Below are positions 3,170 to 17,475 of a DNA stretch of 60,686 nucleotides, one piece after another; the stretch's first letter is position 1, and each line of letters opens with the position of its first letter. Below the pieces are notes generated by a model. That model was given only the letters and a program-made list of their open reading frames with translations. It had not been told where the DNA came from and did no database searches. The DNA is from an uncultured Lachnospiraceae bacterium (lineage in GTDB: Bacteria > Bacillota > Clostridia > Lachnospirales > Lachnospiraceae), in contig CANQUH010000004.1 of the NCBI GenBank assembly GCA_947626965.1, positions 1 to 60,686 on the forward strand, read 5' to 3'. The position numbers were made by a program, and so were the translations under genes.

Positions 3170-5992
3170 TCACGGAGTGACCGTTTCCAGATCTCCTGTA
3201 CTGACAAATTTAATCCCGTAACGATTGGCAAACGCTTCGATGCCTGTACCGCTCTTCGCGTAAATACACATCTCCTCTGAAAGAGGTGATATATCACTAA
3301 AGAAATACTGCTCATTAACCGGCATATCCCCCTCAACGTAAAATTCTCTCAGAGGAGCATGCCAGAACGCCACGTTCTCGATTGTGTCGACACTCGCCGG
3401 GATATTGACGCGGTCCAGACTCTCACAGGAGAGCGCAGAAAACCCGATCGTTTTCAGCCCTTCCGGAAGCCGGATTTCACTGATCGCAGCCGAATCAAAA
3501 GCATATTCTCCAAGTGTGACGACATTATCCATCCCCAGAACTTTTTTCAGATTATACATCCCCATAAAAGCACATTTTCCTATGGAGCGCACGTTTGGCC
3601 CGACGCTGACTTCTTTGATATTTTCCAGATATTCTCTCCACGGACATTCCACCGCATCCTCCGGTTCTTCCATGTCGCCCGGCCATCCCTCGGGAAAAAC
3701 AAAATTATACATATCACTGCTCTCGTCCCCAGTAATCATGAGATTTCCTGTATCCAGATTCAGCCGCCAGGTCAGATGATCGCCGCATACGCCGCGCGCG
3801 GTCCTGCCCGCCTCACCAGTACTCTCAAACGCAATGCCCAGGCGGTCGGCCAGCGTTTCCACTCTGGTTCCCTCCTTTGCGGCAATCTTCATGCCAGGCA
3901 CAGATTCTGTAAATGCATCCTTATTGTACTGGTCAAAGAAGATAGTCCCTCCATCGGATTCCTCCAGAGACGGATCTCCTTCCACAATCAGATTCCTGAC
4001 CGGACAGTTCTGGAAAGCCGCAATTCCGACAGATACCACGGAGGATTCGATTTTCACTTTCTGAAGCGCTTCGCACCCGCTGAACGCATACTCACTGACC
4101 GACCTCAGCCTGCCCCCAAGTGTAAGCGATTTCAGGGACCTGCAGTCCGCAAATGCCTCAATTCCTATGCTCTCCACATTTTCAAGACCCTCGATCTTCT
4201 TCAGCTTTGTAAACTCGAAAAATGTATTTCTTCCAATGTATCTGACGTTATCTTCTATAATGACTTTTTTAATGTCGTGACAATAATCTGACCATGGATA
4301 CTCTTTCAGGCTGGCGTCATACTCATCCTGAGGAGTGTACCCTGACGGTTTCCGGAAATTCCAGGTCGGCCAGCGGCCTGCCGATTCACCGTACAGGACA
4401 AGTTCCTTTGTCTCCTTGTTCAGACGGTAGAAAACATGGTCTCCGCACTGACCTTCAAGCAGCATCTGATTCTCCGCGGTCTCAGATTCCCCGGGCTGCT
4501 CTGATGAAGTTTCCGATTCCTCCGATGTGTTCTCTTCCCTGGTCTCTTCTTCCTGCTGCCCTGAGATTTCTTCTCCGGTCAGGGAGGGCGTCCCGGATTC
4601 CTCTGTCTGTTTTGGCAACGTCTCTGTTTCCTTCACGGTTTTTGTCTCCGGCTCCGTCCCGGACTCCGGTTTCCTGGAAAACACAAACGCGATCACAATC
4701 AGAACGATCGCCGCCGCCGCGATACCTGCCAGAACGGCCGGATTCTGCCTCCATTTTCCGCCGGAGCTTCCGCTGTCTCCGCCGCCGTTTCCTCCTCTGC
4801 CCGATCCGCCTGCCGCGGCCGTTCTGCTTCCTTCTCCGTTTCCGCCGGCACTGCTTACCGTGACTGTCCTGTTTTCTTCTGTATCTCCGCCGGCGTTGGT
4901 TGACGCGGCCGTCCTTCCGATCCCTCCGGGCATCCCGGCTCCGCTGTCTTTTTTGTTCCCCGCAGACCCGCTGTCAGGGGAACCGGCGTTCTCTTCATTC
5001 CCCGGCTCCCAGTACTCAAACTCTTTCATTTTCCCATACAGCTCGTCCATGCTCTGAATCCGCTCTTTTGCCTGAATCGCCATCCCACTCTTCAAGACTT
5101 CCTCCATCTTCGCGGGAATCAGGCAGCCTTTCTCTGACGGCCATACAATTTCTTCCCCGAGAATCCTTCCCGGCGCATCGGCAGGCACCTCGCCCGTCAG
5201 ACAGTAGCAGATCGTGGCGCAGATGGCGTAGACATCCGTCCACGGACCAAGAGAGCCTCTGCTCTGATACTGCTCGATCGGCGCGAATCCCTGTTTCAGA
5301 ATCGCCTCTGTCGAGCTGGTCAGCGGCTGACCGGGCGCCGCCTCCCCGACGTCGCGGACAGCCCCGAAATCCACCAGGCGGATTCCCCCGTCACGCGGCA
5401 GCATGATATTGTCGGGGCTGATATCCCGGTGAACCAGTCCGGCCTTGTGAACCTTCATCAGCGCGTTCATCACTGGAAGAAACAGCCTGACGGTTTCTCC
5501 GGCCTCAAGCCTGCCGCCGTGTTCTTTCACATAGTCGCCGAGCGTCACTCCGTCGACATATTCCATGACAATGTAGGCGGTATTGTTCGCCAGAAAAAAT
5601 GTGTTGATATGTACAATCTCCCGGACATCTGACATTCGCGCCAGCATTTTGGCTTCCCGCATGAATCTGTCCTTGTTGTTGCGGTAACGCACACCCGTTT
5701 TGCCGGAGCCGCTGATGACATCCGTGGAGGCCTTGCAGTTGCGGGAGACCAGCTGATTCGGAAAATATTCCTTGATCGCGACCGGAATATCCAGATATTT
5801 ATCCCAGCCCATATAAGTAATGCCGAAGCCTCCCTGTCCGAGGACCCTGCCGATCAGATACTGCTCGTTGAGCATCGTTCCCGCCGGAAGCTGGTGCTCC
5901 TCGTTCGGAACCGTACCGTCATAGCCGCAGTATGGACAGGGACCTTCCTCTGTCTTTACTCTCATGCATCCATAACAGCGTTTCTCTTCCAT
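3170..5992 (-). CDS. Membrane Ser/Thr protein kinase with leucine-rich repeat (BspA-type) ectodomain
   Basis: A 940-residue Hanks-type kinase. A zinc ribbon (CYGC...CPYC, residues 6-22) precedes the kinase domain (about 45-325) with GQGGFG loop, lysine K74 in VAIKEYFP, HRD 188-190 with ISPDN, DFG 208-210 and GFAPIEQYQ activation segment; all catalytic residues are present. A Gly/Ser-rich linker (about 335-415) leads to one membrane helix (418-439), a Glu/Thr-rich stalk, then two blocks of BspA-type LRR_5 repeats to the end, each introduced by a CGDH(L/V)-type segment. The predicted topology is kinase inside, repeats outside. Start ATG 5992 has GAGGAA upstream. It is the last gene of the kinase operon, 12 bp after the kinase fragment. 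A repeat overlaps its 3' end. LRR sensing rather than PASTA sensing is unusual for such kinases; the ligand is unknown. Confidence 0.9.
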   Translation of the reverse strand: MEEKRCYGCMRVKTEEGPCPYCGYDGTVPNEEHQLPAGTMLNEQYLIGRVLGQGGFGITYMGWDKYLDIPVAIKEYFPNQLVSRNCKASTDVISGSGKTGVRYRNNKDRFMREAKMLARMSDVREIVHINTFFLANNTAYIVMEYVDGVTLGDYVKEHGGRLEAGETVRLFLPVMNALMKVHKAGLVHRDISPDNIMLPRDGGIRLVDFGAVRDVGEAAPGQPLTSSTEAILKQGFAPIEQYQSRGSLGPWTDVYAICATICYCLTGEVPADAPGRILGEEIVWPSEKGCLIPAKMEEVLKSGMAIQAKERIQSMDELYGKMKEFEYWEPGNEENAGSPDSGSAGNKKDSGAGMPGGIGRTAASTNAGGDTEENRTVTVSSAGGNGEGSRTAAAGGSGRGGNGGGDSGSSGGKWRQNPAVLAGIAAAAIVLIVIAFVFSRKPESGTEPETKTVKETETLPKQTEESGTPSLTGEEISGQQEEETREENTSEESETSSEQPGESETAENQMLLEGQCGDHVFYRLNKETKELVLYGESAGRWPTWNFRKPSGYTPQDEYDASLKEYPWSDYCHDIKKVIIEDNVRYIGRNTFFEFTKLKKIEGLENVESIGIEAFADCRSLKSLTLGGRLRSVSEYAFSGCEALQKVKIESSVVSVGIAAFQNCPVRNLIVEGDPSLEESDGGTIFFDQYNKDAFTESVPGMKIAAKEGTRVETLADRLGIAFESTGEAGRTARGVCGDHLTWRLNLDTGNLMITGDESSDMYNFVFPEGWPGDMEEPEDAVECPWREYLENIKEVSVGPNVRSIGKCAFMGMYNLKKVLGMDNVVTLGEYAFDSAAISEIRLPEGLKTIGFSALSCESLDRVNIPASVDTIENVAFWHAPLREFYVEGDMPVNEQYFFSDISPLSEEMCIYAKSGTGIEAFANRYGIKFVSTGDLETVTP

Positions 5993-6004
5993 TTGTAAAT
6001 TCCT

Positions 6005-6499
6005 CTATTTGTTGTCCGCAGTCTGCGGACCGTCTTCGTAATCTCTTACATAATAACACGTTTCATTACGGGTGAACATATCCATGAATATTTCTTTTAC
6101 CCGGATCGTGCAGCTGTAATACAGTCTGGCACGGCTGAGATAATCCTGTATGCCCTGTTCAAATTCCTTCTCATGCCCTGCCGCACAGTTTACCTGAGAG
6201 GAAGCCGTGTTATCCCTGAAAAGCCATTTCTGCGGATAGTATTCGTTGATCTTTACCTTACACTTCCGCTTCAGATCCCATCCAAGATACACCAGCTGCT
6301 CCTCCTCCGTCTTTAAAACTTTGCCCGTCACATACCGCCCCTTCAGGATCGTTCCCGGCGGAAGCTGCCACGACAGGATCAGATACAGGCCGTCCTGCCA
6401 GCCGCAGACCGGACAGGAGACATTCTCGTCTTTTCCTGCTCTCTGCTCAGAACGGGCAAAGCAGTAAATACATCTGTTAAATTTTTTAATTTTGTCCAT
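6005..6499 (-). CDS. Zinc ribbon plus kinase N-lobe fragment (putative pseudokinase adaptor)
   Basis: The 164-residue product starts with a zinc ribbon (CIYC...CPVC), then LPPGTILKGRYVTGKVL and VKINEYYPQKW, which align by eye with the N-lobe of the flanking kinases (LPPGTVVGERY..., VAVKEYYPSFW). The glycine-rich loop is replaced by LKTEEEQ, and the C-lobe with HRD, PDN and DFG is absent, so it cannot be an active kinase alone. It sits 19 bp after one kinase and 12 bp before another, and has GGAG upstream of ATG 6499. It may be a regulatory partner, or the decaying remnant of a duplicated kinase gene. The frame is intact to its stop and no C-lobe remnant is left before the next gene. Confidence 0.7.
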   Translation of the reverse strand: MDKIKKFNRCIYCFARSEQRAGKDENVSCPVCGWQDGLYLILSWQLPPGTILKGRYVTGKVLKTEEEQLVYLGWDLKRKCKVKINEYYPQKWLFRDNTASSQVNCAAGHEKEFEQGIQDYLSRARLYYSCTIRVKEIFMDMFTRNETCYYVRDYEDGPQTADNK

Positions 6500-6518
6500 A
6501 CGAACACTCCGTCACATG

Positions 6519-7724
6519 CTAAAATCCCCGGACTTTCCGAAAAATCATTCTGCATATCTCGCGGAAGCGTCCATTCTGGCCCGCGGTGCCGGAACCGGCA
6601 TGCTCCTCCCAGGCATTGCTTTCTGTCTGAGGCGCTGTCCGATCGTGGTTTATATAATATGCATCCTCCGAAAAGATTCCGGACCTGCTTTCCGAAATAT
6701 CCTGATTCTGCCCTGTCTCCGTGCGCAGAATCCTGCCGCCTGATCCGCCTGTCATCGCGCCCGGAAAACCATCCTCCGGCCCCATGCACACCGTTTTGCC
6801 GTCCTGCTGCCCCGATTCCTTAAATACAGCAGTATTTCCCTCCTGGTGAGTCCCGGCATCACGCGGACCATACATCAGTTTCCACAGTTCTTCCATCGAC
6901 TGCGGCCTTTTGTTCACAAACAGATCAAGTCCCTGCAGAATCGCCTCTTCCTGCCACGGCGGCAGGGAAACTCCCAGCTGCGCAAGCGTCGGAAGCGGAG
7001 TCCCTGTCAGGCGCTCCATCGCCTGTACCGGAAGTTTGCCGCTCAGGCAGTAATACATGGTGGCACAGACTCCGTAAACATCCGTCCAGATTCCCTGCCC
7101 CCTGCTCCGGTACTGCTCCGGCGGAGCGAATCCCTGTTTCATCGCCAGCGTCATTGACCGTTTTTCCGTCGTGTCACGGGCATTTCCAAAATCAAGCAGC
7201 TTAACATTCCCGTTTTCCAGCATCATGATGTTGTCGGGGCTGATATCCCTGTGGATCAGTCCCAGATCGTGCACTTTTTTGACCGCCAGGATCAGCGGCT
7301 CCATCACGGGCATCAGGATATCCGGAGGGATACGGCCCTCAAAACCGTCCGTCATCTGTTTCAGGTTCTGTCCGTCCAGATATTCCATGACCAGATACCC
7401 GGTATTGTTCTCCTCAAAGTAATCCCGCACCAGAACAATTTCTGGTATCATGTGCAGATGGGCCAGCGTGACCGCTTCCCCGTGAAACCGCTCCAGTCCC
7501 TTTTCATAGGACTCCTGATATTCCCGCTGACACCGCACAACAAAGCTGTCCCCGACATAGCGGTTCACCCAGAAAGATGGGTAGTATTCCTTGACCGCCA
7601 CCGGAAGATCAAGCCTGCTGTCTCTTCCGTAATAAGTAATTCCGTAACCGCCCTCTCCCAGAACATACTCTATGCGGTACCTTTCTCCGACCACCGTTCC
7701 CGGCGGAAGCTGATATGATGACAA
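6519..7724 (-). CDS. Ser/Thr protein kinase, soluble
   Basis: A 401-residue Hanks-type kinase: glycine loop GEGGYG, K45 in VAVKEYYP, HRD 158-160 followed by ISPDN, DFG 178-180 and GFAPPEQYRSRG. Unlike its neighbours it has neither zinc ribbon nor membrane helix; residues after about 285 are hydrophilic and rich in Gly/Ser/Gln, probably disordered. Translation probably begins at TTG 7724, preceded by AAGGGGG at normal spacing; no ATG lies near the conserved N-terminus. It is separated from the upstream phosphatase gene by 174 bp that hold a palindromic repeat, and is followed closely by the kinase fragment and the LRR kinase. Its substrates are probably among the FHA partners of this island, which is inference from context. 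Confidence 0.9.
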   Translation of the reverse strand: MSSYQLPPGTVVGERYRIEYVLGEGGYGITYYGRDSRLDLPVAVKEYYPSFWVNRYVGDSFVVRCQREYQESYEKGLERFHGEAVTLAHLHMIPEIVLVRDYFEENNTGYLVMEYLDGQNLKQMTDGFEGRIPPDILMPVMEPLILAVKKVHDLGLIHRDISPDNIMMLENGNVKLLDFGNARDTTEKRSMTLAMKQGFAPPEQYRSRGQGIWTDVYGVCATMYYCLSGKLPVQAMERLTGTPLPTLAQLGVSLPPWQEEAILQGLDLFVNKRPQSMEELWKLMYGPRDAGTHQEGNTAVFKESGQQDGKTVCMGPEDGFPGAMTGGSGGRILRTETGQNQDISESRSGIFSEDAYYINHDRTAPQTESNAWEEHAGSGTAGQNGRFREICRMIFRKVRGF

Positions 7725-7783
7725 TTATTTTCCCCCTTTATTTTCATATGCGGACCTGTGCATCATGCGCAAAGCACTGTTAT

Positions 7784-7893
7784 GTCACAGGACAAAATTT
7801 CCTGTGAATCAGGCAGGAGGCGGCTTTTCCTCCTGCCCGCCGCGCGGCCCGGGAGCTGCGTCAGCAGCTGATTTCCATGCCTGGGCCTGCGCA
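7784..7893 (+). repeat. Palindromic interspersed repeat, family A copy 2
   Basis: Three hairpins in a row: TCACAGGA/TCCTGTGA, GCAGGAGG/CCTCCTGC, and a GCCCGGG/CCTGGGC arm enclosing GCTGCGTCAGCAGC. It fills most of the gap between the phosphatase stop (7899) and the kinase start (7724). A closely matching copy lies at 15035-15137 and partial ones at 1-57 and 42117-42159. Confidence 0.65.
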
Positions 7894-7898
7894 TTATA

Positions 7899-8615
7899 TT
7901 ACGCCTCGCAGAACACCGCCGCGGCCGTATAATTATCGTTTCCTTCCTTCACTCTTTCAAGAAGAAGCCGCTCCATCGCCGCAAGCCACTCCTGCGGCGT
8001 TTTTGCCGCGGCAAGCGTTTTCTCCATCTCTTCCTCATAGACGTATTCCCAGAAACCGTCCGTGCAGAGCAGGAACGCGTGCGCCCCTTCCTCCACACAG
8101 ATATCCGTCACAATATCCGGTTTCCAGTTCTCGCTGCCCAGCGCGCGCAGAACCCGGTTGCGGTCCTCATGGAACCTGATCTGATCCGGAGTAATATCTC
8201 CCATCAGAACCGCCATCTGTGAAACGCTGTGATCCATCGTCTGATGCGTCAGGCGGCCGTCGGCAAAGTGATAAAGCCGGGAATCCCCCACATGTCCCCA
8301 GGCGGCGCGTCCGCCGGCTATTGTGAGTACGACTGCCGTCGTCTTCATCACGCATCTTTTCGTCTGTCTGTCTCTCACTTTCTGCCCGGCATGCTCAAAC
8401 GCGTGGTACAGATTTTCCGCACCCTGGAGATTTTCTGCTTCATAGTCGGTCAAAAACGATTCCGCCGCCGTCCGGGAGGCCGTCTGGCCCCCTCCATGTC
8501 CGCCAAGCCCGTCGGCAACCACCGCACAGATACCTGCCGGCAGCGTCCTGATCCGGACTGTATCCTCGTTTTCCGCGCGTCCACCGCAGGCTGTTATCTG
8601 CGCCGAAGTAATCAT
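7899..8615 (-). CDS. PP2C-family Ser/Thr phosphatase, soluble
   Basis: A 238-residue metal-dependent protein phosphatase expected to reverse the marks set by the neighbouring kinases. Family motifs are present in order: ENEDTV, ADGLGGHGGG, HVGDSRLY, TDGFWEYV and GNDNYTAA, which supply the metal-binding aspartates. No membrane segment is visible. Start ATG 8615 has AGGAGGG seven bases upstream. It follows the membrane-anchored PP2C gene by 15 bp, so the two are cotranscribed. The presence of one soluble and one tethered phosphatase parallels the soluble and tethered kinases in the same island. Confidence 0.93.
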   Translation of the reverse strand: MITSAQITACGGRAENEDTVRIRTLPAGICAVVADGLGGHGGGQTASRTAAESFLTDYEAENLQGAENLYHAFEHAGQKVRDRQTKRCVMKTTAVVLTIAGGRAAWGHVGDSRLYHFADGRLTHQTMDHSVSQMAVLMGDITPDQIRFHEDRNRVLRALGSENWKPDIVTDICVEEGAHAFLLCTDGFWEYVYEEEMEKTLAAAKTPQEWLAAMERLLLERVKEGNDNYTAAAVFCEA

Positions 8616-8630
8616 CCTGCATCCCTCCTG

Positions 8631-9740
8631 TCAGCCATGATATTCCATGATCAGTGCCGTATAATTATCCTGCGCTGCTTTTGCCGCGGCCTCGACTCCC
8701 TCTCCCAGTCTGCTGGCGGCCTCCTGCGCCGGATATGCCAGCGCCTGCTCCATCTGCTGCTGTGTCAGAGTCCCGAATATCCCGTCCGTGGCCAGCAGGA
8801 TTTTATCTCCGTCCGTCAGCACAATCCCGTCCGTGCTGCGGTCCAGATATTTCAGCCGTCCTGCCCCGATGAAACTGGTCAGACCTTCCCTCTGGATATC
8901 CCGATGAACGCTTTCCAGACTCCGCTGTCCGTTCACGGCCTCAAGCGCCAGAACCTCCTCATATATATGCGGCCGGTTCAGGCAAATCAGCCTTCCGCCC
9001 CTCATCAGGTAAATCCGGCTGTCCCCCACGGTCAGAAAGCCGAGAACTCCCTGCCGGACCAGAGCGAGCACCATCGTCGATCCGCTGCGCTCCGGCATCC
9101 TCTGCAGCATTCTGTTTGCACTGTCATTGACAGTCCCCGCAATCTCCATCAGCCGGTCGGAAATATTCTCCGCGCCTTTTGCCTGGAACTCCTCCATACA
9201 GATGCGCACCACCAGCTCGCTGACGTCTCTCCCATTCGCAAGTCCCCCCATTCCGTCCGCGACAACCGCAAGTATGCCTTTCTCACCGTAAAACGCGGCG
9301 TCCCCGCTGTCCGAGACCGCGAAGGAATCCTGCTGGTCTCTGCGCGCTCCGATCCCCTGGACCACGCCGGTGCTGATCGCCGAAGTCATCTGCGGCGGCG
9401 TGCCGCCCGACGGCATAAGATCCGTCACAGGAGCCGAAGATGATGCAGCTGTCCCTGCCGGATCGGATGTTCCGGAAAACAGACATTCCGTAACCGGCGG
9501 TTCTTCTTCCGCATTGTTTCCGGAACCGGCATCCGGCACATCCTTTACCGTATTTTCAAATCTCATGTCTGTCTTTGTTCCATACTCTGTTCTGTTCTCC
9601 GACCCGCTCTCATCCGTCCACTGTTTTTTCCTTTTCCTCATCTCGTTTGAAGCAAGCAGAAAAACCAGCACCAGCAGCAGAACGGCTCCCGCAAGTCCCG
9701 CCAGCAGCGGAATGATTCCCAGTATGTTTATTTTCTCCAT
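8631..9740 (-). CDS. PP2C-family Ser/Thr phosphatase with N-terminal membrane anchor
   Basis: A 369-residue protein. Residues about 5-31 form a hydrophobic helix followed by NEMRKRKK, giving an anchor with the rest in the cytoplasm. A hydrophilic linker of roughly 90 residues leads to a PP2C domain with RRDQQDSF, ADGMGGL, VGDSRIYL, TDGIFG and QDNYTAL motifs. The metal ligands appear intact. GAGGG precedes ATG 9740, and the FHA zinc-ribbon gene ends 12 bp upstream. It belongs to the same operon and probably dephosphorylates membrane-proximal kinase targets; this role is inferred from position and family. Confidence 0.92.
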   Translation of the reverse strand: MEKINILGIIPLLAGLAGAVLLLVLVFLLASNEMRKRKKQWTDESGSENRTEYGTKTDMRFENTVKDVPDAGSGNNAEEEPPVTECLFSGTSDPAGTAASSSAPVTDLMPSGGTPPQMTSAISTGVVQGIGARRDQQDSFAVSDSGDAAFYGEKGILAVVADGMGGLANGRDVSELVVRICMEEFQAKGAENISDRLMEIAGTVNDSANRMLQRMPERSGSTMVLALVRQGVLGFLTVGDSRIYLMRGGRLICLNRPHIYEEVLALEAVNGQRSLESVHRDIQREGLTSFIGAGRLKYLDRSTDGIVLTDGDKILLATDGIFGTLTQQQMEQALAYPAQEAASRLGEGVEAAAKAAQDNYTALIMEYHG

Positions 9741-9752
9741 GGCAGGCCCTCA

Positions 9753-10436
9753 TCATGAATCCAGTTCATCCCAGGAAAACTTCTCGCCGCACAGTGGCAT
9801 GAAGATCAGCACGCTCTTTCCGATCTCTATCCTGTCGTAGGCATGAAGCTCCGTCATCATCAGGACGGCCTTGCCGTTCAGACGCACGATTCCTCTGCCG
9901 CTTCCCGGCGCGAAATAATACAGCTTCTCTCTCGTATCGTAGGCGAGGATCGCATGATTTTCCCGGGAAATCGTATCGTCGCTCGCGATTGAAATATCCA
10001 TGTAGCTCGCGCGTCCAATATAATTATTGTCGGCGTGGATCTTATAATCCTGTCCCTTCGACGGCCCTGCGATGCAGACCAGCCATCCGACGACGGGGCT
10101 GATCATCCCATCCTGCCTGTTTCCGGCTTCATTTGTCCTTACGCGGCTGCTGTAGGCCCCCGTAAACACGGATGGCTGATATGCCTCTCTTGCCTGTCCC
10201 CATCCCGGTCCTCTGACCGGCTCTGTCTCCACGGAATTGTCCGCCTCGCCCGGACGGATCTGAAATACCGGCATGGTCTTTCCTATCTGATCGGCAAAAC
10301 CCGCGTCCGGCGCCCATGTCTCGGTTCCTCCTTTTACGGCAAGCGTCTCACTCATGCGGAGTCTCGCGCACTCCGGACACTCCGGTGTCACGGAAGGATC
10401 ATAGCTGTGTCCGTTTTTACATCTGATAATTTCCAT
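9753..10436 (-). CDS. Zinc ribbon plus FHA domain protein
   Basis: A 227-residue cytoplasmic protein. The N-terminus has CKNGHSYDPS...CPEC, a small zinc-binding ribbon, then a variable linker, then an FHA domain (about residues 120-215) with IGRASYMDI, SRENHAIL and a GRGIVRLNGK segment. FHA domains bind phosphothreonine, so this is a likely reader of the local kinases. I use ATG 10436 because AAGGAG lies eight bases upstream and because a longer in-frame start at 10499 would overlap the preceding gene by about 30 bp. The upstream kinase-FHA gene ends 31 bp away. Confidence 0.88.
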   Translation of the reverse strand: MEIIRCKNGHSYDPSVTPECPECARLRMSETLAVKGGTETWAPDAGFADQIGKTMPVFQIRPGEADNSVETEPVRGPGWGQAREAYQPSVFTGAYSSRVRTNEAGNRQDGMISPVVGWLVCIAGPSKGQDYKIHADNNYIGRASYMDISIASDDTISRENHAILAYDTREKLYYFAPGSGRGIVRLNGKAVLMMTELHAYDRIEIGKSVLIFMPLCGEKFSWDELDS

Positions 10437-10467
10437 CTTAACTCTCCTTTTCCCGCTGTTGTGTTTT

Positions 10468-11748
10468 TCAGCGTATCTCAAAAATCTGATTATCTCCAAG
10501 CCGGATAATGCTGCCCGCCTTTAATTCATAGACAAGCCCCGGCATAATTTTGCGGCGTTCAAGATAAGTCGGCAGGCCGCAGCCCATATCCACAAGATAA
10601 CATCTCCCGCCGCTGCTCCATATCCGGAAATGAATGCCGCCTACTCCGTAAGTTTTTTCCGGAAACCGTATCCTGCAGCTTTCATCCTTTCCCGCGTACT
10701 GTATGCCCGTGACCGGAAATACACGGCCTTCCAGCGATCCGGCCCTTCCCACAAGATACCGTTCCCGTTTTCCGGTCCCCGGTCTGGTCAGTTCCGTCCA
10801 GAATGTTATCACATCTCTGTACCTTCGCTGCATCTGCAGCTCCATCCCACGCATCAGGGCCTCCTCATGAAAATCTTCGGGAAGCCTGATTCCAAGCTGT
10901 GACGGAGGTTTTACCGGATCGTTCGTCAGACGGTCCATCGACTGCGGAATCATCTGTCCGGTCAGGCACTGATAGATCGTGACAGCCAGCGCGTACACGT
11001 CTGTCCACGGACCCAGGCGCTCCGTCCCCCTGTACTGTTCCGGGGGAGCATAACCGCGCTTGAGCATGACCATCGTGCTCTTTCCTCCGATCGAACTCCT
11101 GGCCGCTCCGAAATCGATCAGCTTGACCTGACCTCCCTCCCGCAGAATGATGTTGTCCGGGCTTACATCGCAGTGGACGATCCCGCTCTTGTGTATCTCG
11201 CACAAGGCCGACACGGTCTGCGAAAAGACCGGGCGCAGCCTCTGCCAGTCCATTCTCCCGTTTTTTTCTTTCCGGAGCGCCTGTCCAAGATCCTGTCCCT
11301 CCAGGTATTCCATCACATAGTAAGCCGTATTATTTTCCCGGAACATATGGCTGACGCTGATGATGTTCGGATGGTCGCGGTATCGGTTCACAATCCTCGC
11401 TTCCTTCAGAAAAACCTCCAGATACTTCTCGTAGCACGCCGGATCCCCCTTCACGGCTACCTGACAGGATCTCCGCGTGTTTCCCGTCAGATCGCGCGGC
11501 ATGTATTCCTTGACGGCCACCCGGCAGTCCTCCTTCTCGTCGCGCGCCAGGTAGGTGATGCCGAATCCCCCCTCGCCAAGCACGCGTCCGATCCTGTACC
11601 TGCCATGCAGAAGATATCTTTGCGGAAGCGCACGTCCGGAATTCGCAGGAAGAAGGCCAGGGGCTCCGCAGACCGGACAATATCCCCCGTATATGTACCC
11701 TTTCATGCAGTTCATACAGAGCTGCCCGGACTGTCCCTTAAGAATCAT
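10468..11748 (-). CDS. Ser/Thr protein kinase with C-terminal FHA domain (non-RD kinase)
   Basis: A 426-residue protein: zinc ribbon (CMNC...CPVC, residues 11-27), kinase domain about 50-330 with GEGGFG, K80 in VAVKEYMP, catalytic loop HCDVSPDN (D194), DFG 212-214 and GYAPPEQYRG, then an FHA domain (about 335-426) with a GVGGIHFRIW-like strand. The usual HRD arginine is cysteine, so this is a non-RD kinase whose activity may not depend on activation-loop phosphorylation; the sister kinases at 3170 and 6519 keep HRD. Its ATGA overlap with the PrsW-FHA gene indicates translational coupling. The FHA part may bind autophosphorylated or partner sites. Confidence 0.92.
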   Translation of the reverse strand: MILKGQSGQLCMNCMKGYIYGGYCPVCGAPGLLPANSGRALPQRYLLHGRYRIGRVLGEGGFGITYLARDEKEDCRVAVKEYMPRDLTGNTRRSCQVAVKGDPACYEKYLEVFLKEARIVNRYRDHPNIISVSHMFRENNTAYYVMEYLEGQDLGQALRKEKNGRMDWQRLRPVFSQTVSALCEIHKSGIVHCDVSPDNIILREGGQVKLIDFGAARSSIGGKSTMVMLKRGYAPPEQYRGTERLGPWTDVYALAVTIYQCLTGQMIPQSMDRLTNDPVKPPSQLGIRLPEDFHEEALMRGMELQMQRRYRDVITFWTELTRPGTGKRERYLVGRAGSLEGRVFPVTGIQYAGKDESCRIRFPEKTYGVGGIHFRIWSSGGRCYLVDMGCGLPTYLERRKIMPGLVYELKAGSIIRLGDNQIFEIR

Positions 11749-13133
11749 ATGATCCCTTTCCTGTCACGGACAAGCCGGAAACTGCAGGACTCATTTCCAA
11801 GACTGAGGACGGCTCCCTCCGGCACGATCACGTCCGTGTATGGCTGAATTTTCTGCCCTCCGATGAATGTGCCGTTGCTCGATCCCAGGTCCTGAACGAT
11901 CAGATTCTGCCCCGAAAACCGAAGACTGCAGTGCTTTCCGCTCACATGCGGGCTGTTTGGAAACGCAATCATGCACTGGCGGCCGTCGCGCCCCGCGGCA
12001 GCCGACATGCCTTCATACAGATCGATCCTCCGGCCGGCATATTCTCCGCTCGTTCCCTGCAGATACCAGACGGTTTCCTCCTTGTATCTGCTCTGACCGG
12101 ACGGCGTGTCAAAGTAGACATCTCCGCCGAAAGACGCCGCCTCCTCGCCATGCCGGATCCCTGCCGTCAGACCTCCGTTCTCCGCCGCCACGATTCCGAC
12201 AATCTGATTAACCCCGCGTCTGAGCATTACAAGCCAGATCGCCAGGTTGATCACGGTGAGAATCAGATGCTGCGTGCTTATGATCCCATCCGCAAAAAAG
12301 GGCAGGCCGAGATTCATGTTATTGAAAAAATGCAGTACGACCGCCAGGATAAAATAGACAAGAAACAGCGGGTTCAGCAGATGAAGCGGACTAAGATTGT
12401 CCTCTCCTTTCGCCTCCGCGAGAGCTCCCCCGTAAAGCGATGCCCAGAATGCGTGTCCTGAGAAGGAATTCAGCGCTCTCGCAATTCCCGTCCCCATTCC
12501 CTGGTCAAAGGTATATCCGATCGACTCCATAAAAGAAAATCCCGTGCCGACCGCAAAACCGATCAGAATGCCGTTCAGAATATACGGCCTTTTTTTCTTT
12601 CTGCTTCCGAGGAAGTAGTAAACCGCCAGCAGTTTCGCCGGTTCCTCCACCAGTCCGGCCCATCTCGCCTCGACATTCACGGACGCGATCACATAAATAA
12701 GCTCAAACGCCAGAACCCCTGTCACAATGGAGACCACGCCGCCCACAAAAACCATCTTGATCACTTCATACAGAGCGATATTTCTCGGTATATGGAGCTC
12801 CCACACCAGCACCATGCAGGTGAACGGCACGAGACAGGGAAAAAGGCTGACGCCCGGATAAAGAGTATACTTGTTTCCCCCGTAAATCAGACTGACAAAA
12901 AACAGTGCGGCGACTGACAGCAGCATAATGATAAAAAACCGCAGGAACAGATACGGCTTCATCCAGCCGACAAGCATATCCTTCCTCTGCGGGGTCGTCA
13001 TCGGCGTACCCGCGATAAACACCCGCGCTGTTTCCTCCTCCGTGTGCCGCTTGAACACATCAGAAAAAATATCCCCATATCCGAGTGTTCCGCTGTCCGC
13101 GTGTCTGATAAAAGTTTCATTTTTGCTGCTCAT
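11745..13133 (-). CDS. PrsW-family intramembrane metalloprotease fused to FHA domain
   Basis: A 462-residue polytopic membrane protein. About eight hydrophobic segments span residues 60-350. Family motifs are visible: VEEPAK (E163, E164), SFMESIGY (E203), SGHAFW (H227) and VLHFFNN (H268), the residues thought to bind zinc in PrsW. A C-terminal FHA domain (about 375-460) has SPHVSGKHCSLRF and SSNGTFIGG. PrsW in B. subtilis cleaves an anti-sigma factor; fusion to a phosphothreonine reader suggests cleavage gated by phosphorylation, which is inference. ATG 13133 has GGGAGG at good spacing; a longer frame to 13256 would overlap the upstream gene. It starts 4 bp after the FHA membrane protein and overlaps the kinase-FHA gene by four bases. 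Confidence 0.9.
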   Translation of the reverse strand: MSSKNETFIRHADSGTLGYGDIFSDVFKRHTEEETARVFIAGTPMTTPQRKDMLVGWMKPYLFLRFFIIMLLSVAALFFVSLIYGGNKYTLYPGVSLFPCLVPFTCMVLVWELHIPRNIALYEVIKMVFVGGVVSIVTGVLAFELIYVIASVNVEARWAGLVEEPAKLLAVYYFLGSRKKKRPYILNGILIGFAVGTGFSFMESIGYTFDQGMGTGIARALNSFSGHAFWASLYGGALAEAKGEDNLSPLHLLNPLFLVYFILAVVLHFFNNMNLGLPFFADGIISTQHLILTVINLAIWLVMLRRGVNQIVGIVAAENGGLTAGIRHGEEAASFGGDVYFDTPSGQSRYKEETVWYLQGTSGEYAGRRIDLYEGMSAAAGRDGRQCMIAFPNSPHVSGKHCSLRFSGQNLIVQDLGSSNGTFIGGQKIQPYTDVIVPEGAVLSLGNESCSFRLVRDRKGII

Positions 13134-13137
13134 ACTT

Positions 13138-14895
13138 TCAACCTCCCTGCTTTTTCTGTATGATCTGAAACATATTTGTCTTTGTCGCCAGATAAAATCT
13201 GGTGCCCGGTTCCATGTAATACTCCACCTTCGGCTCCAGACGCAGTCCGTTCTCAAAGAATGTCCCGTACTTTGATCCGCAGTCCTTCAAAAATACCGCG
13301 CCGTCCCGAACCTCAAGCGTACAATGCTCACGGCTGATCCCCGCCGTATCGGACGGAAACGCGATGCCGCATTTCTCCTTGTCCCTGCCCAGAAGCAGTT
13401 TCCCGGCCACGGCAAAACGCCTTCCGGCAAACGCACCCGAGATTCCCTGCAGACGGAACTGTTTCTGCGGTTTCCCTGATTGTACCGGATGCTCCTGCGG
13501 ACTTCCTGCCTGCTTCGCCTGGTTCCCGTACGGCTGAACCGGCGGCGTTCCAACCTGCGGTCCCTGGCCCCCGTACGGCTGAACCGAAGGATTCCCCATC
13601 GGCTGGACCTGGCCCCTATATGGCTGAGCTGGCGGCGTTCCAACCTGCGGTCCCTGGCCCCCGTACGGCTGAACCGGAGAATTTCCCATCGGCTGAGCCG
13701 GGCCTCCATACGGCTGAATTGGCGGCGTTCCCTCCTGCATCCTCTGGTCCCCATATGGCTGGATCGGCGGATTTCCCGGCTGCGCCCCGGAATTTCCTCC
13801 TGCCTGTCCCGTCTTCTTTCCGCGGTTCACCACACTGATGACCGCCAGGATCAGGATCACAATCACAATCCCTCCGATTATGTACAGATCGCTTCTGCCG
13901 ATCAGACCTTTCCATTCCGTCTCCTGCTGTCCGCCGTTCTGATTTCCCTGACCTCCTTCAGATATCTCTTTTCCCCAGTTCTTCACAGCGAGCTGTTCCG
14001 GCAGATCGATCCCTGCAATATCGAAAAACAGGTACTGCTCGCCGGTGAAAAAGCCGACTCCCACTGCTTCGTACGTCTGCGCGTCCAGAATCATCGTTCC
14101 CGTCCAAAGATTTCCCAGCTGCAGATCATCGGATAATGTATAAACTCCCTGGTCGTACGAATAGTTTTCTATGCTGAGCAGCCCTCTCTGCATTGTCTCC
14201 CCGTCCCAGCTGGCGATAACACCCAGAAGCGAATGATCCTGATCAATTCCATTTCCAAGAGAAACCCCCTTTACACTCACCGGCTCCGCGGCATAGAGCA
14301 GCGCCGCATTGCTTCCGACATTCTGAGCTATCGTCTCAAAAACAATATCCGAATCCATCATACAGAGCATCCCAGCCTGCTCGTAATCCAGGCTGCCTGC
14401 CACCTCCTGCGTGGCGATCCATGTATTTCCGGACGACTTGACCGCGAACGTATTGAGCATTGCGGCAATTTCCCCGGACTCCCTCTCCACCAGAATCAAT
14501 ATGCCGGCTGCGTCTGCCGCTTTCTGGATTTCTTTGGGCAGCTCAGAAGAAGCCGTATTCATGCTTGTATAAAAATCCAGTTTTTCCAGCCGGTCCGTTT
14601 CGGAATCTCCGGATTCCCCGGACTCTCCGAATTTCGGCAGCCCGACCGCTCCCGGACCGGAATCCCCTGTTTTCATCTGAAATTTCTGACCGTTTTCCGT
14701 CTGCATGTTCAGACTGTTCGCTCTCAGCATTTCCTGAAGATTCATCGTCCGCTCCGGCTGGACGCTCTCTGTCTGCGCCTCCTGTCCGGCCGCCGCCTGC
14801 ACTCTCATCTGTCCGCCCGCATCCGCGGCACATATGCCAAGCACAAAAAGGACAGCCGGCAGAACTCCCCTTAAAAATTTAATTTTTCTGCTCAT
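13138..14895 (-). CDS. Secreted-domain, single-pass membrane protein with cytoplasmic FHA domain
   Basis: A 585-residue protein with a signal peptide (about 1-35, hydrophobic core LPAVLFVLGICAADA), an extracytoplasmic region (36-335) of unrecognised fold that vaguely recalls a degenerate trypsin-like barrel, one membrane helix (337-356), a proline/glutamine tail of imperfect QPYGG-containing repeats (377-457), and an FHA domain (480-580) with LLGRDKEKCGIAF, SREHC and GSKYGTFFENG. The topology would place an external sensor and an internal phosphothreonine reader on one chain. ATG 14895 has GGAGGAGG upstream. It is the first gene of the tight cluster running down to 7899. The ectodomain function is unknown. 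Confidence 0.85.
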   Translation of the reverse strand: MSRKIKFLRGVLPAVLFVLGICAADAGGQMRVQAAAGQEAQTESVQPERTMNLQEMLRANSLNMQTENGQKFQMKTGDSGPGAVGLPKFGESGESGDSETDRLEKLDFYTSMNTASSELPKEIQKAADAAGILILVERESGEIAAMLNTFAVKSSGNTWIATQEVAGSLDYEQAGMLCMMDSDIVFETIAQNVGSNAALLYAAEPVSVKGVSLGNGIDQDHSLLGVIASWDGETMQRGLLSIENYSYDQGVYTLSDDLQLGNLWTGTMILDAQTYEAVGVGFFTGEQYLFFDIAGIDLPEQLAVKNWGKEISEGGQGNQNGGQQETEWKGLIGRSDLYIIGGIVIVILILAVISVVNRGKKTGQAGGNSGAQPGNPPIQPYGDQRMQEGTPPIQPYGGPAQPMGNSPVQPYGGQGPQVGTPPAQPYRGQVQPMGNPSVQPYGGQGPQVGTPPVQPYGNQAKQAGSPQEHPVQSGKPQKQFRLQGISGAFAGRRFAVAGKLLLGRDKEKCGIAFPSDTAGISREHCTLEVRDGAVFLKDCGSKYGTFFENGLRLEPKVEYYMEPGTRFYLATKTNMFQIIQKKQGG

Positions 14896-15034
14896 CTCTG
14901 ATTACCTCCTCCGTATTGTCCTCTCACTTGAAGAATCCCTTTAATGCAGGGCAAAAGGTACTTCACTCTGAATTTGATTTCATCATTTTTTATTCTACCA
15001 CCCTCCATTTTTCTGCCGGGCAATCCGGTTCCGG

Positions 15035-15137
15035 AAAAAATTTCCTGTGAATCGAGCAGGAGGCGGTCTTCCCTCCTGCCCGCCGCGCGGCCCGCATGCT
15101 GCGCCTGCAGCTGATTTCCTTATGCGGGCCTGAGCAT
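15035..15137 (+). repeat. Palindromic interspersed repeat, family A copy 3
   Basis: Near copy of the repeat at 7784-7893: TTTCCTGTGAATC, then hairpin GCAGGAGG/CCTCCTGC, then GCCCGCAT/ATGCGGGC around a CTGCAG core. It and the terminator at 15144-15184 fill most of the 337 bp gap 14896-15232. I see no gene in that gap and no convincing promoter for the FHA operon. Confidence 0.65.
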
Positions 15138-15143
15138 AGCAAA

Positions 15144-15184
15144 ATCCCCCGCATCGCCGTCACTCATATGGCAATGCGGGGGAT
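15144..15184 (-). terminator. Rho-independent terminator of the HTH-like gene
   Basis: Perfect 11 bp stem ATCCCCCGCAT / ATGCGGGGGAT with a 19-base loop, about 50 bp past the minus-strand stop at 15233 and followed on that strand by TTTTGC. It separates the HTH-like gene from the FHA/kinase operon. Confidence 0.7.
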
Positions 15185-15232
15185 TCCCCAAAATATTTTG
15201 GAACGAGAAAAAGAAAATCATTTTGTCGTTCC

Positions 15233-16333
15233 CTATAATTCAAATAACTCTGCGATAATCAGCTTCATACTGGCGCTCATGTCATCTCCATCCCGCGGCA
15301 TCAGGCAGTAAAGCACAAGATAGTCAAACGGACTTCGCGGATCCATGCGCCGCATGCCGCATTCTTCCATCATCCAGTTCAGCCTTCTGCAGTGTTCCTC
15401 AAGAATTTCGCCTGCCGGAATATAGTCCTCGTCCAGCTCGTCATATTTTCCGTCGCGGATGCCTCCCGTGATCAGATACAGCAGAAGCAGCACCTTTCTC
15501 GTGACATCTTCCGTACGGTTCCGCATCCCCTTGATGCTCCGAACCCCCGGCCAGTATTTTTTTATTATTTTCTGTATATCACTGTATGACGCGGTTCTCC
15601 GCTCCAGAGGCATATTCATGCGCAGATATGTCTCCGTCACATATTCAATCGAATACTCTTCTTCATCTGCGCCGCCTTCCGTCAGCAGTCCCAGCATTTT
15701 CATAAAATACTGCCATGCCGTATTATGATAGAAACCCAGCTTCTCACTGTGGCACATCAGAAAATTCATGATATCCTCCCCCGGAGGCAGATTCTCAAAT
15801 TCCAGGCGGAGTATCCGCGTGGCAGCCGCCTGCTCCCTGCCGGCGTCTTTTCTGTACCCGCCGACCAGATCCGCGTTGGCGCGCGCCGTCTGATAGCTCT
15901 GATGATTGCGCAGGGAAAACGCGTAGACAACCTCCCGGGGATTGCGGTAATGAATCCCCTGCTCCACCGTCCCAAGCAGCAGATCATCCGTTTGATGTTC
16001 GTCAAATCCCAGGGCAAACGCAATTCTGAAAATTTCTTCCCTGTCAGAGGGAAGTTTCTTATTCTTCATCCAGTTCTGCACTTTCCTGCGCACGCTGTCC
16101 TCTCTGACCGGCTTCTCATCCATTCCGGCATATTCCGTCATCCCCGCGATCAGGCGTTCCTGGACATCCTCTCCGCCATACAGCCGGCGCAGATTATCCG
16201 GAAAAGTGCGCAGAGGCAGTCCTGATTTCAAAAAGGCGACTGCCTGGCGCGGCGTCAGCGTTTCACGCAGCAGATAATCCCACTGACGTGCCGAAAGTTC
16301 CGTAAACTGTGAACGTATATTGTTTTCCCCCAT
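15233..16333 (-). CDS. Unknown protein with XRE-like helix-turn-helix segment
   Basis: A 366-residue cytoplasmic protein that I do not recognise as a named family. Residues about 75-125 (SVRRKVQNWMKNKKLP then EEIFRIAFALGFDEHQTDDLLLG) resemble an XRE-type helix-turn-helix with the following helices typical of cell-state regulators. The remainder is predicted alpha-helical with no membrane segment and few cysteines. ATG 16333 has GAGGAGG at ideal spacing, and a strong TTGACA-N16-TATAAT promoter lies 60 bp upstream. It has its own terminator. Placement directly before the kinase/FHA operon, on the same strand, suggests a regulator or effector of that island; this is inference from position. Confidence 0.75.
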   Translation of the reverse strand: MGENNIRSQFTELSARQWDYLLRETLTPRQAVAFLKSGLPLRTFPDNLRRLYGGEDVQERLIAGMTEYAGMDEKPVREDSVRRKVQNWMKNKKLPSDREEIFRIAFALGFDEHQTDDLLLGTVEQGIHYRNPREVVYAFSLRNHQSYQTARANADLVGGYRKDAGREQAAATRILRLEFENLPPGEDIMNFLMCHSEKLGFYHNTAWQYFMKMLGLLTEGGADEEEYSIEYVTETYLRMNMPLERRTASYSDIQKIIKKYWPGVRSIKGMRNRTEDVTRKVLLLLYLITGGIRDGKYDELDEDYIPAGEILEEHCRRLNWMMEECGMRRMDPRSPFDYLVLYCLMPRDGDDMSASMKLIIAELFEL

Positions 16334-16392: not shown

Positions 16393-16420
16393 ATTATAAC
16401 AGTCTCCCTGTCCTTGTCAA
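16393..16420 (-). promoter_or_regulatory. Strong sigma-A promoter for the HTH-like gene
   Basis: Minus strand: TTGACA (16420-16415), 16 bp spacer, TATAAT (16398-16393); both hexamers are perfect. The predicted leader is about 50 nt. Confidence 0.8.
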
Positions 16421-16484: not shown

Positions 16485-16898
16485 TATCAGCAGGGAAGAC
16501 TGGCTGCAGTCTTTTTCCTGGCAAGCTGGCCCCGGGATCGTTTTCTGATTCTGGAGCAAAGTCTAATTTCTGAAGGAACGAATAATCCGCACGGACTTGG
16601 GCGGGTTCTGTGCAAGAGTATATTTGGATAGCTACGAAGCAAAAGCAGCCAAATACGGAAGTGTACTTGACTTAAATCTGCAGTACTGTCCGTGTGGTTA
16701 CAATGCTGTATCATGTCATTTGTATCCACCGCTTCTTTATATCTTACGCACCGCCATTTTATGGTTACGGTTCACTCCTCTGCAGGTCGTGATGTGCCAG
16801 GAACGGCAGGAACCGCAACATTTTGTGTCCACAGTATGTCAGATTCTGCCATCAGGCGGAATGTATTGCTGCGGTCATTATTTGTATCCCTGATTTAT
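16485..16898 (+). other. Long untranslated leader before folE
   Basis: About 425 nt separate the promoter from the folE start and no convincing coding frame fills them. At 16496-16516 the stem AAGACTG / CAGTCTT with loop GCTG is followed by a T run and could act as an early attenuator. I could not match the rest to a tetrahydrofolate riboswitch by eye. A second, unseen promoter nearer folE is possible. Confidence 0.4.
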
Positions 16899-16911
16899 GG
16901 AGGAATTACTT

Positions 16912-17475
16912 ATGGATGAAGAAAAAATCAAACAGGGCGTACGGCTGATACTTGAAGGAATCGGTGAGGACATTCACCGCGAAGGGCTGCTTGAGACACC
17001 TGACCGGATTGCGCGCATGTACCGCGATCTTGCGGGAGGGTATACTGAGGATGCGGCAACGCATCTCGCGAAGCGTTTTCATGTGGACAGCAATGACATG
17101 GTTCTTGAGAAAGATATCCACTTTTATTCATTCTGCGAACACCATATGCTGCCGTTCTACGGTACAGCGGCAATCGCGTATATACCGAACCAGGAGGTTG
17201 TCGGCCTCAGCAAAATCGCGCGGACCGTCGAGGTCTACGCCCGCCGTTTCCAGCTCCAGGAGAGACTGACCACCCAGATCGCCGATATTTTCATGCAGGA
17301 ACTGAAGCCGCAGGGCGTCATGGTACTCATCGAGGCGGAACATATGTGCATGACCATGCGCGGAGTGAAGAAACCGGGTACAAAGACGGTCACTGTGGTG
17401 ACGCGCGGCGTCTTTGAGGGAAATGATTCCCTGCAGACTACTTTTTACCGGATGCTGGAGTACCATGGAAGATGA
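16912..17475 (+). CDS. folE: GTP cyclohydrolase I
   Basis: Converts GTP to 7,8-dihydroneopterin triphosphate, the first step of folate synthesis, as a cytoplasmic homodecamer. The 187-residue product has the zinc and catalytic motifs [19 protein letters not shown] and MCMTMRGV typical of type IA enzymes, and normal length. The start is ATG 16912 because GGAGG (16899-16903) lies eight bases upstream; an in-frame ATG at 16897 overlaps that site. It is the first gene of a folate operon and overlaps the HD hydrolase gene by four bases. Confidence 0.97.

Follow-up and report, generated by a model that had tools for sequence, protein, structure and literature searches.

The stretch of DNA analysed here (the window) is a complete contig of 60,686 bp (C4) from an uncultured Lachnospiraceae bacterium, whose draft genome of 4.29 Mb is 89% complete, so that absences from this genome are provisional. 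Ten consecutive genes on its minus strand, running from position 16333 to position 3170, make up an island in the order HTH366, FHA585, PrsW-FHA, Kin-FHA, FHA248, PP2Ctm, PP2Csol, Kin401, Kfrag164 and KinLRR (Table 1), with an HD-domain gene at 1853-2800 on one side and, on the other, a GTP cyclohydrolase I gene at 16897-17475. Searches against Pfam and NCBIfam identified three Hanks kinases, two PP2C phosphatases, a PrsW-type protease and FHA domains on four proteins, with Pfam E-values of 1.9e-11, 1.6e-16, 2.8e-7 and 2.5e-4 for FHA, 8.9e-17 for PrsW and 1.9e-42 for LRR_5, together with three Pkinase and two PP2C_2 matches. The open reading frames (ORFs) and domains thus agree with a first-pass annotation of the same letters, which had described nine minus-strand kinase, PP2C, FHA and PrsW genes preceded by HTH366.

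The genes from FHA585 to KinLRR are separated by −4 to 31 bp, with the single exception of 174 bp upstream of Kin401. The strong promoter that the first-pass annotation had placed before an HTH-like gene was recovered upstream of HTH366 as the sole 12/12 match in a sigma-70 scan, whereas the "HTH" label finds weak similarity only and no Pfam or NCBIfam family. Since HTH366 has its own promoter and a trailing hairpin, it appears on sequence grounds to form one transcription unit and the nine-gene run another. The terminator scan gave no excess over shuffles and did not list this hairpin, whose loop is too long for the scanner.

Table 1. Position, strand and basis of assignment of the features of the island.
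Feature	Position	Strand	Basis
Sigma-70 type promoter of HTH366 (TTGACA-16-TATAAT)	16393..16420	minus	12/12 consensus positions
HTH366, 366 residues, kinase-linked family, proposed activator	15233..16333	minus	kinase-adjoining relatives 25/28
Terminator-like hairpin, 18-pair stem then TTTT, between HTH366 and the operon	15141..15187	minus	fold
Conserved promoter box GGAAnCnnnTTGCnC + 20 bp + TAnnnT, TG preceding the -10	14992..15032	minus	cluster comparison
FHA585: trypsin-like (probably inactive) ectodomain, transmembrane segment ~330, C-terminal FHA	13138..14895	minus	Pfam FHA, profile alignment
PrsW intramembrane protease, FHA at C-terminus (PrsW-FHA)	11745..13133	minus	Pfam, alignment of relatives
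Kin-FHA: zinc-ribbon-like N-terminus (by eye), Hanks kinase (HCD), degenerate FHA	10468..11748	minus	Pfam, motif reading
FHA248: zinc-ribbon-like N-terminus (by eye) + FHA; 227 residues from ATG	9753..10436	minus	Pfam, motif reading
PP2Ctm, membrane-tethered PP2C phosphatase	8631..9740	minus	Pfam, motif reading
PP2Csol, soluble PP2C phosphatase	7899..8615	minus	Pfam, motif reading
Kin401, soluble Hanks kinase	6519..7724	minus	Pfam, motif reading
Kfrag164: zinc-ribbon-like N-terminus (by eye) + kinase N-lobe only	6005..6499	minus	same form kept across clusters
KinLRR: zinc-ribbon-like N-terminus (by eye), Hanks kinase, transmembrane segment ~415, BspA-type LRR ectodomain	3170..5992	minus	Pfam, motif reading

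Judged by the comparison of loci, the island is a conserved but patchily distributed module. Gene calls in the compared loci came from a simple ORF picker and no annotation pipeline; G and L numbers denote genomes and loci, and C numbers contigs of the window's genome. Within the genus, 20 of 47 genomes matched PrsW-FHA at an E-value of 0.001 or better, mostly through the FHA part alone, and the full-length protein was found in four (G000, which is the window's own genome, G004, G038 and G042), with a divergent FHA-less form in G014. The same gene set is present in G004, G038 and G042, and the surrounding genes differ between the window, G004 and the G038/G042 pair. Across 397 genomes of the family, 16 matches were obtained at 1e-15, of which nine (own included) covered PrsW and FHA, five PrsW only and two FHA only. 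All eight full PrsW-FHA loci other than the window's own carry FHA248, both PP2Cs and at least one kinase, and seven of them an FHA585-like gene; in the fetched stretches of the five PrsW-only loci no PP2C or FHA248 was found, and a kinase-like ORF was present in one. In a sample of 291 genomes from the class there were 31 matches at 1e-15, both parts being covered in two, the window's genome and G545, which carries the cluster.

A scan of the genome collection, from which the best 80 of 349 PrsW relatives were kept (27 fused to FHA and 53 unfused, one of the latter, L147, being cut by a contig end), allowed fused and unfused proteins to be compared, with neighbours sought in the fetched flanks of at most 10 kb per side. 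Both a kinase (above 60 bits) and a PP2C lie nearby in 23/27 fused against 0/53 unfused loci, FHA248 in 22/27 against 0/53 and an FHA585-like gene in 18/27 against 0/53; Fisher values calculated from these counts overstate independence, as L114, L115, L116, L118, L121 and L126 have the same lengths as contigs already sampled and others are close relatives. Lachnospiraceae are named in the titles of 12 of the 27 fused loci, and the cluster also occurs in Oscillospiraceae (L131) and Selenomonadaceae (L139), whereas the Gemmatimonadaceae locus L160 is without it. A version lacking HTH366 is found in L118, a record titled Murimonas intestini DSM 26524, the title of which is flagged UNVERIFIED_CONTAM.

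Six clusters are led by HTH366: those of the window, G004 (= L114), G038, G042 (= L115), G388 (= L116) and L117. FHA585, PrsW-FHA, Kin-FHA, FHA248, PP2Ctm and PP2Csol follow one another in this order in all six, with an extra kinase before PP2Csol in G004, and the HTH366 proteins of the other five are 45-68% identical to that of the window. The tail reads KinLRR, Kin401, Kfrag in these five and Kin401, Kfrag, KinLRR in the window, and one kinase of L116 is split into two ORFs, a broken copy. The first-pass annotation had named independent scattering of the genes in related genomes as evidence against its proposal; they were instead found together and largely in order, both in these six clusters and in the comparison of fused and unfused loci, and this conservation strengthens the proposal.

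All three full kinases of the window keep the Lys of VAIK, the catalytic Asp and DFG. The catalytic loop of Kin-FHA reads HCD rather than HRD, as do its counterparts in L114-L117 (5/5 HTH366-led clusters compared), whereas 11 readable counterparts in other clusters have HRD. No VAIK Lys, HRD or DFG motif was found in Kfrag164, which we considered as a decaying kinase; this was rejected, as intact N-lobe-only ORFs of 150-172 residues, devoid of a C-lobe, are present in the window, G004, G038, G042, L116 and L117. Kfrag164 is thus taken as a real gene, because the N-lobe-only form is kept in all six HTH366-led clusters, and this free-standing N-lobe may dock on the N-lobes of the kinases. Both phosphatases keep the DG..GG, GDS, TDG and DN motifs, and a pattern search for NED gave no match in PP2Ctm. 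Against the equivalog of the PASTA kinases (PknB/PrkC/Stk1), which has a cut-off of 450 bits, the window kinases scored 144.9, 140.7 and 139.4 bits, and against the Stp1/IreP equivalog (cut-off 230) the PP2Cs scored 90.8 and 145.8 bits; a simple PrkC/PrpC paralogue was rejected because all these scores fall below the cut-offs. The absence of a PASTA kinase claimed by the first-pass annotation was borne out, with no PASTA domain in the island proteins by Pfam and the PASTA matches of the genome located on another contig, C7.

The PrsW motifs are EExxK, FxxxE and two His within membrane helices, and the corresponding residues of PrsW-FHA, E163, E164, K167, F199, E203, H227 and H268, are invariant in 12/12 aligned relatives. 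The protein scored 61.7 bits against PF13367, above the curated cut-off of 23.5, and 34.6 bits against the NCBIfam PrsW equivalog NF033739, under its 225-bit cut-off. FHA domains bind phosphothreonine through the Arg of GR, the Ser and His of SxxH and the Asn of NG. The FHA domain of PrsW-FHA has all the expected residues; in FHA585 and FHA248 the Arg, Ser and His are retained, with the Asn not at the usual place, and the domain of Kin-FHA is without the expected Arg and Ser. The four FHA domains seen in the first pass are present, but its count of four readers is weakened because the domain of Kin-FHA is degenerate.

FHA585, which adjoins PrsW-FHA in 6/6 HTH366-led clusters, has a hydrophobic stretch at its start, a second one near residue 330 and its FHA domain at the C-terminus. 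Four of ten scanned counterparts, from other cluster types (L120, L121, L123, L125), carry a Trypsin_2 domain at the position of the ectodomain, as does the counterpart in L102, which lies on the same contig as L118; the L118 counterpart itself matches HtrA/DegS-type proteases of the PDB. Trypsin_2 was not matched in the scanned FHA585 proteins of HTH366-led clusters (L114-L117, and the window by Pfam). A profile of the window, L114 and L115 proteins aligned with the trypsin-like profile in one comparison (E-value of 6.6e-5, probability 64%), where the serine motif GNSGGPL of a trypsin-like relative reads GNLWTGTM in the window protein, and no convincing alignment with the trypsin-like set was obtained for the L116 and L117 ectodomains. 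This alignment suggests that FHA585 is probably a pseudo-protease.

HTH366 matched no Pfam, NCBIfam or PADLOC family, and its relatives were found in 17/397 genomes of the family and 12/47 of the genus. Of the 28 relatives found outside the six clusters, 25 adjoin a kinase gene, 21 of these as the same-strand gene directly upstream, compared with 32/288 for the other genes of the same loci; kinases were counted here from 45 bits, a threshold that LRR-only matches may also clear, as one did in L098, where a true kinase is present as well. The three relatives without an adjoining kinase are those of L083 (an ORF lies between), L225 (a split copy) and L230 (contig end). Pfam searches on ten genes, mostly adjoining HTH366-kinase pairs, revealed no common family. 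From this linkage, the HTH366 family is described here as a new class of kinase partners. Among the eight partner kinases that were scanned, four carry a fused NACHT or NB-ARC domain; in L083, L084, L085 and L092, relatives of HTH366 stand beside Hanks kinase-NACHT/NB-ARC (STAND) fusions of ~1000 residues, which may represent an undescribed kinase-STAND system.

A kinase N-lobe joined to a C-terminal module that resembles part of HTH366 is encoded at L039:1056-1940. In G014 the module fused to such an N-lobe has a profile score of 33.2 against HTH366 (maximum of 50 shuffles 15.5), and it matches Pfam HTH_26 at an E-value of 0.05 only. Region 96-154 of HTH366 resembles a module with such weak HTH_26 similarity, and a helix-turn-helix nature is plausible on these alignments. 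A PDB profile match of HTH366 to ribosomal protein eS1 was rejected as too weak (best E-value 0.012).

Upstream of FHA585, all six HTH366-led clusters carry the box GGAAnCnnnTTGCnC, followed after 20 bp by TAnnnT, and G004 has a second copy upstream of FHA248. From the box through the -10, 15 of 47 columns are identical in six sites of five clusters (the G038 site was omitted as a near copy of G042) against 0 of 64 flanking columns. The box pattern, which for genome scans fixed one G more than the L117 box has, matched once in the window's draft genome and 12 times in 47 congeneric genomes, five at clusters, all of 41 bp, and seven elsewhere, all of other lengths; a reversed control pattern gave three matches in the same 47 genomes. 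A looser pattern also matched inside genes, both of unrelated loci and of some cluster loci (L104, L125 and L156 among them), and in the loci examined the full pattern had no match at those relatives of HTH366 that lie beyond the six clusters. A small ORF lies between the box and FHA585 in L116 (3499-3822) and L117 (8351-8809; its listed start precedes the box and the true start is uncertain), and none was seen in the window. TGnTAnnnT corresponds to an extended -10 element, and the box would then occupy the -35 position, centred near -41, as for an activator site. These comparisons indicate a promoter box dedicated to HTH366-led clusters, newly described here.

The box could also be bound by something else, HTH366 acting as a kinase adaptor and not as a transcription factor. 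This is a real possibility, towards which the lack of a recognised DNA-binding family, the unconvincing PDB matches and the association of the family with kinases all point, although we lean against it. An XRE gene lies beside G388/L116, L117, G014, L154, L156 and L189 (HTH_26 in the three scanned). The box tracks HTH366 and not XRE: no XRE homologue was found in the fetched DNA of the window, G004, G038 and G042, where HTH366 and the box are both present, and no full-pattern box in the XRE-bearing G014, L154, L156 and L189. The likeness of region 96-154 also speaks for DNA binding.

PrsW appears, by comparison of the loci, to be an add-on to a wider class of clusters, as FHA248 relatives occur in 58/397 genomes of the family (E-value of 1e-10) and FHA-fused PrsW in 9/397 (1e-15). 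FHA/PP2C/kinase clusters without PrsW occur, and the window's own genome has two (contigs C80 and C5). In clusters of this class FHA is also found fused to VWA (L103, L104), to dynamin (L106) and to an ABC transporter (L041). The cluster family would thus seem to plug different membrane devices into one phosphorylation core, with the island of the window as one type. In the C5 cluster (L232:2159-19999, L233), several kinases, a VWA-FHA protein and a pair each of FHA248-like genes and PP2Cs are interspersed with proteins of other kinds (fn3, RCC1 repeats); on C80 (L041:7861-10335) an ABC transporter with FHA domains lies inside another kinase/PP2C/FHA cluster, and L106 (13698-15563) contains a dynamin-type GTPase-FHA fusion adjoining a PrsW-FHA cluster. 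The first-pass annotation had spoken of a self-contained circuit; the linked gene set stands, and "self-contained" may be too strong, as cross-talk is possible with the clusters on C5 and C80.

In light of these data, we propose that the island encodes a membrane phosphothreonine circuit that recruits PrsW to its substrates, under a dedicated activator, a reading to which we assign a probability of about 0.5. KinLRR would sense an external signal through its LRR ectodomain and, with its sister kinases, phosphorylate threonines on membrane partners; the FHA tail would carry PrsW to its substrate, where an intramembrane cut alters or ends the signal, and the tethered and soluble PP2Cs would reset the circuit. 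The part of sensor, scaffold or substrate would most probably fall to FHA585 with its pseudo-trypsin ectodomain, and its place next to PrsW-FHA in each of the six HTH366-led clusters makes it the first substrate candidate. Transcribed from a strong promoter of its own, HTH366 would activate the nine-gene operon through the box that replaces the -35 and thereby set the amount of the device. We infer all of these steps, including the signal, the substrate and the control of proteolysis by phosphothreonine recruitment that the first-pass annotation had suggested, from the anatomy of the proteins and the linkage of their genes.

Several observations weigh against this circuit. No anti-sigma factor or other obvious PrsW substrate was recognised within the island, and the trypsin likeness of FHA585 comes from a single profile comparison. 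Four of the 27 FHA-fused PrsW loci (L130, L132, L136 and L160) are without a kinase and a PP2C together in the fetched DNA, L130 being a short contig that bears a PP2C and FHA248, and the add-on character of PrsW in the wider class points in the same direction. HTH366 relatives stand beside FHA/PP2C clusters without the box in G176 and G270, and XRE-type regulators lie beside some clusters, so that control by HTH366 is not universal.

A more detailed scheme, which we put forward tentatively and regard as rather doubtful, is that of phospho-gated intramembrane proteolysis, in which two membrane proteases or pseudo-proteases, an HtrA/DegS-like ectodomain protein and PrsW, both bear FHA tails and receptor-like kinases would thereby determine which proteins come together in the membrane and undergo cleavage, with HTH366 and the box as a switch and the N-lobe protein for tuning. 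Bacterial intramembrane proteolysis is usually seen as triggered by changes outside the cell, and its coupling to eukaryote-like phosphothreonine signalling would, if true, be a new control principle. The setting is that of animal-associated Clostridia, the kinase networks of which are little studied, and one operon, one promoter box and one candidate activator make the idea testable. The HTH366 family further points to an unstudied class of kinase partners, also beside kinase-NACHT proteins.

Instead of such a proteolytic circuit, the island could serve in biological conflict or phage defence by means of phosphorylation, in the manner of KKP or of the PADLOC kinase modules. Its patchiness in the genus, with three different gene settings among the four full-length genomes (G038 and G042 being alike), and the NACHT or NB-ARC fusions of half the scanned kinases beside HTH366 relatives would fit, as would KKP itself, a PP2C with two kinases, one of them FHA-fused, in the available text of its description (PMC11341870). 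We nevertheless consider it unlikely, since no nuclease or toxin domain was found in the island by Pfam and the receptor-like ectodomains point to envelope sensing. The PADLOC matches are to kinase and PP2C models and are generic, and an anti-phage assignment from them was rejected because each kinase matches 32-33 models. KKP, as far as that text goes, is restricted to Gram-negatives, lies mostly in prophages and has a cold-shock-domain kinase (PMC11341870); no cold-shock domain was found in the ten island proteins at an E-value of 0.01. The shared PP2C and kinases, one FHA-fused, are set in the island among ten genes with membrane proteins and a protease.

A role of the island as regulatory portion of a type VII secretion system (T7SS) is much less probable, although the newer subtypes T7SSc-T7SSj of Bacillota bear a membrane kinase, a PPM phosphatase and FHA proteins in the excerpts of PMC11217815. 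L174 has a true EssC gene (TIGR03928; 905.7 bits against a cut-off of 778.4) at a distance of 58 bp downstream of PrsW-FHA, after PP2C and kinase genes, and a T7SS locus can therefore contain the module; in G141 WXG100 genes are found on the cluster contig, ~16 kb off. The L174 region (6433-16040) comprises a kinase, a small membrane protein of CxxGH/CPYC type (by eye), a PP2C and PrsW-FHA directly upstream of EssC. With the L174 EssC as query, however, an EssC-like ATPase was found in 1/27 FHA-fused PrsW loci, L174 itself; a weak match in the FHA locus L013 of G026 was the only other one among the loci examined. WXG100 was detected in 4/13 cluster-bearing genomes searched, a set that left out the genome of L117, and not in G000, G004, G038, G042, G388 or G014; the window has no EssC-like ORF, and no WXG100 gene was detected in its draft genome. 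A general role as T7SS regulator was rejected on these EssC and WXG100 counts. Finally, although the window is a single contig of a draft genome, a grouping by chance or as an assembly artefact is refuted by the nearly identical order in five other genomes with HTH366 at 45-68% identity, and by the 23/27 against 0/53 of the fused and unfused loci.

Writer, eraser and reader genes are also adjacent in the mycobacterial pknA-pknB-pstP-fhaA-fhaB locus and the PpkA-PppA-Fha genes of type VI secretion systems; the island shares this arrangement and differs in having an intramembrane protease and no PASTA kinase. The first-pass annotation had no description of this exact combination to point to. Searches of the open-licence PubMed Central literature yielded none for the cluster, for the HTH366 family or for the box, and the cluster is not described in the available parts of PMC7159879 and PMC12088040, whereas the PrsW-FHA fusion has been known since 2012. 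The survey of that year named PrsW-FHA and PrsW-zinc-ribbon fusions and proposed "signaling peptidases", with cleavage under the control of a signal (PMC3482391); it has in common with our data PrsW joined to a phosphopeptide-binding FHA domain, and its excerpts contain no account of a conserved kinase/PP2C cluster, of the partner family or of the box. Bacillus subtilis PrsW, which cleaves RsiW according to the same excerpts (PMC3482391), belongs to the same protease family and has the same active-site residues, and the window PrsW differs by its FHA tail and its score under the equivalog cut-off. T7SSc-T7SSj differ from the window, which is without a detected WXG100 or EssC-like gene, and resemble it in joining a kinase, a PPM phosphatase and FHA proteins in Bacillota; on the accessible text of PMC11217815, these T7SS variants with kinases, phosphatases and FHA proteins are the nearest published Bacillota neighbourhood that we found.

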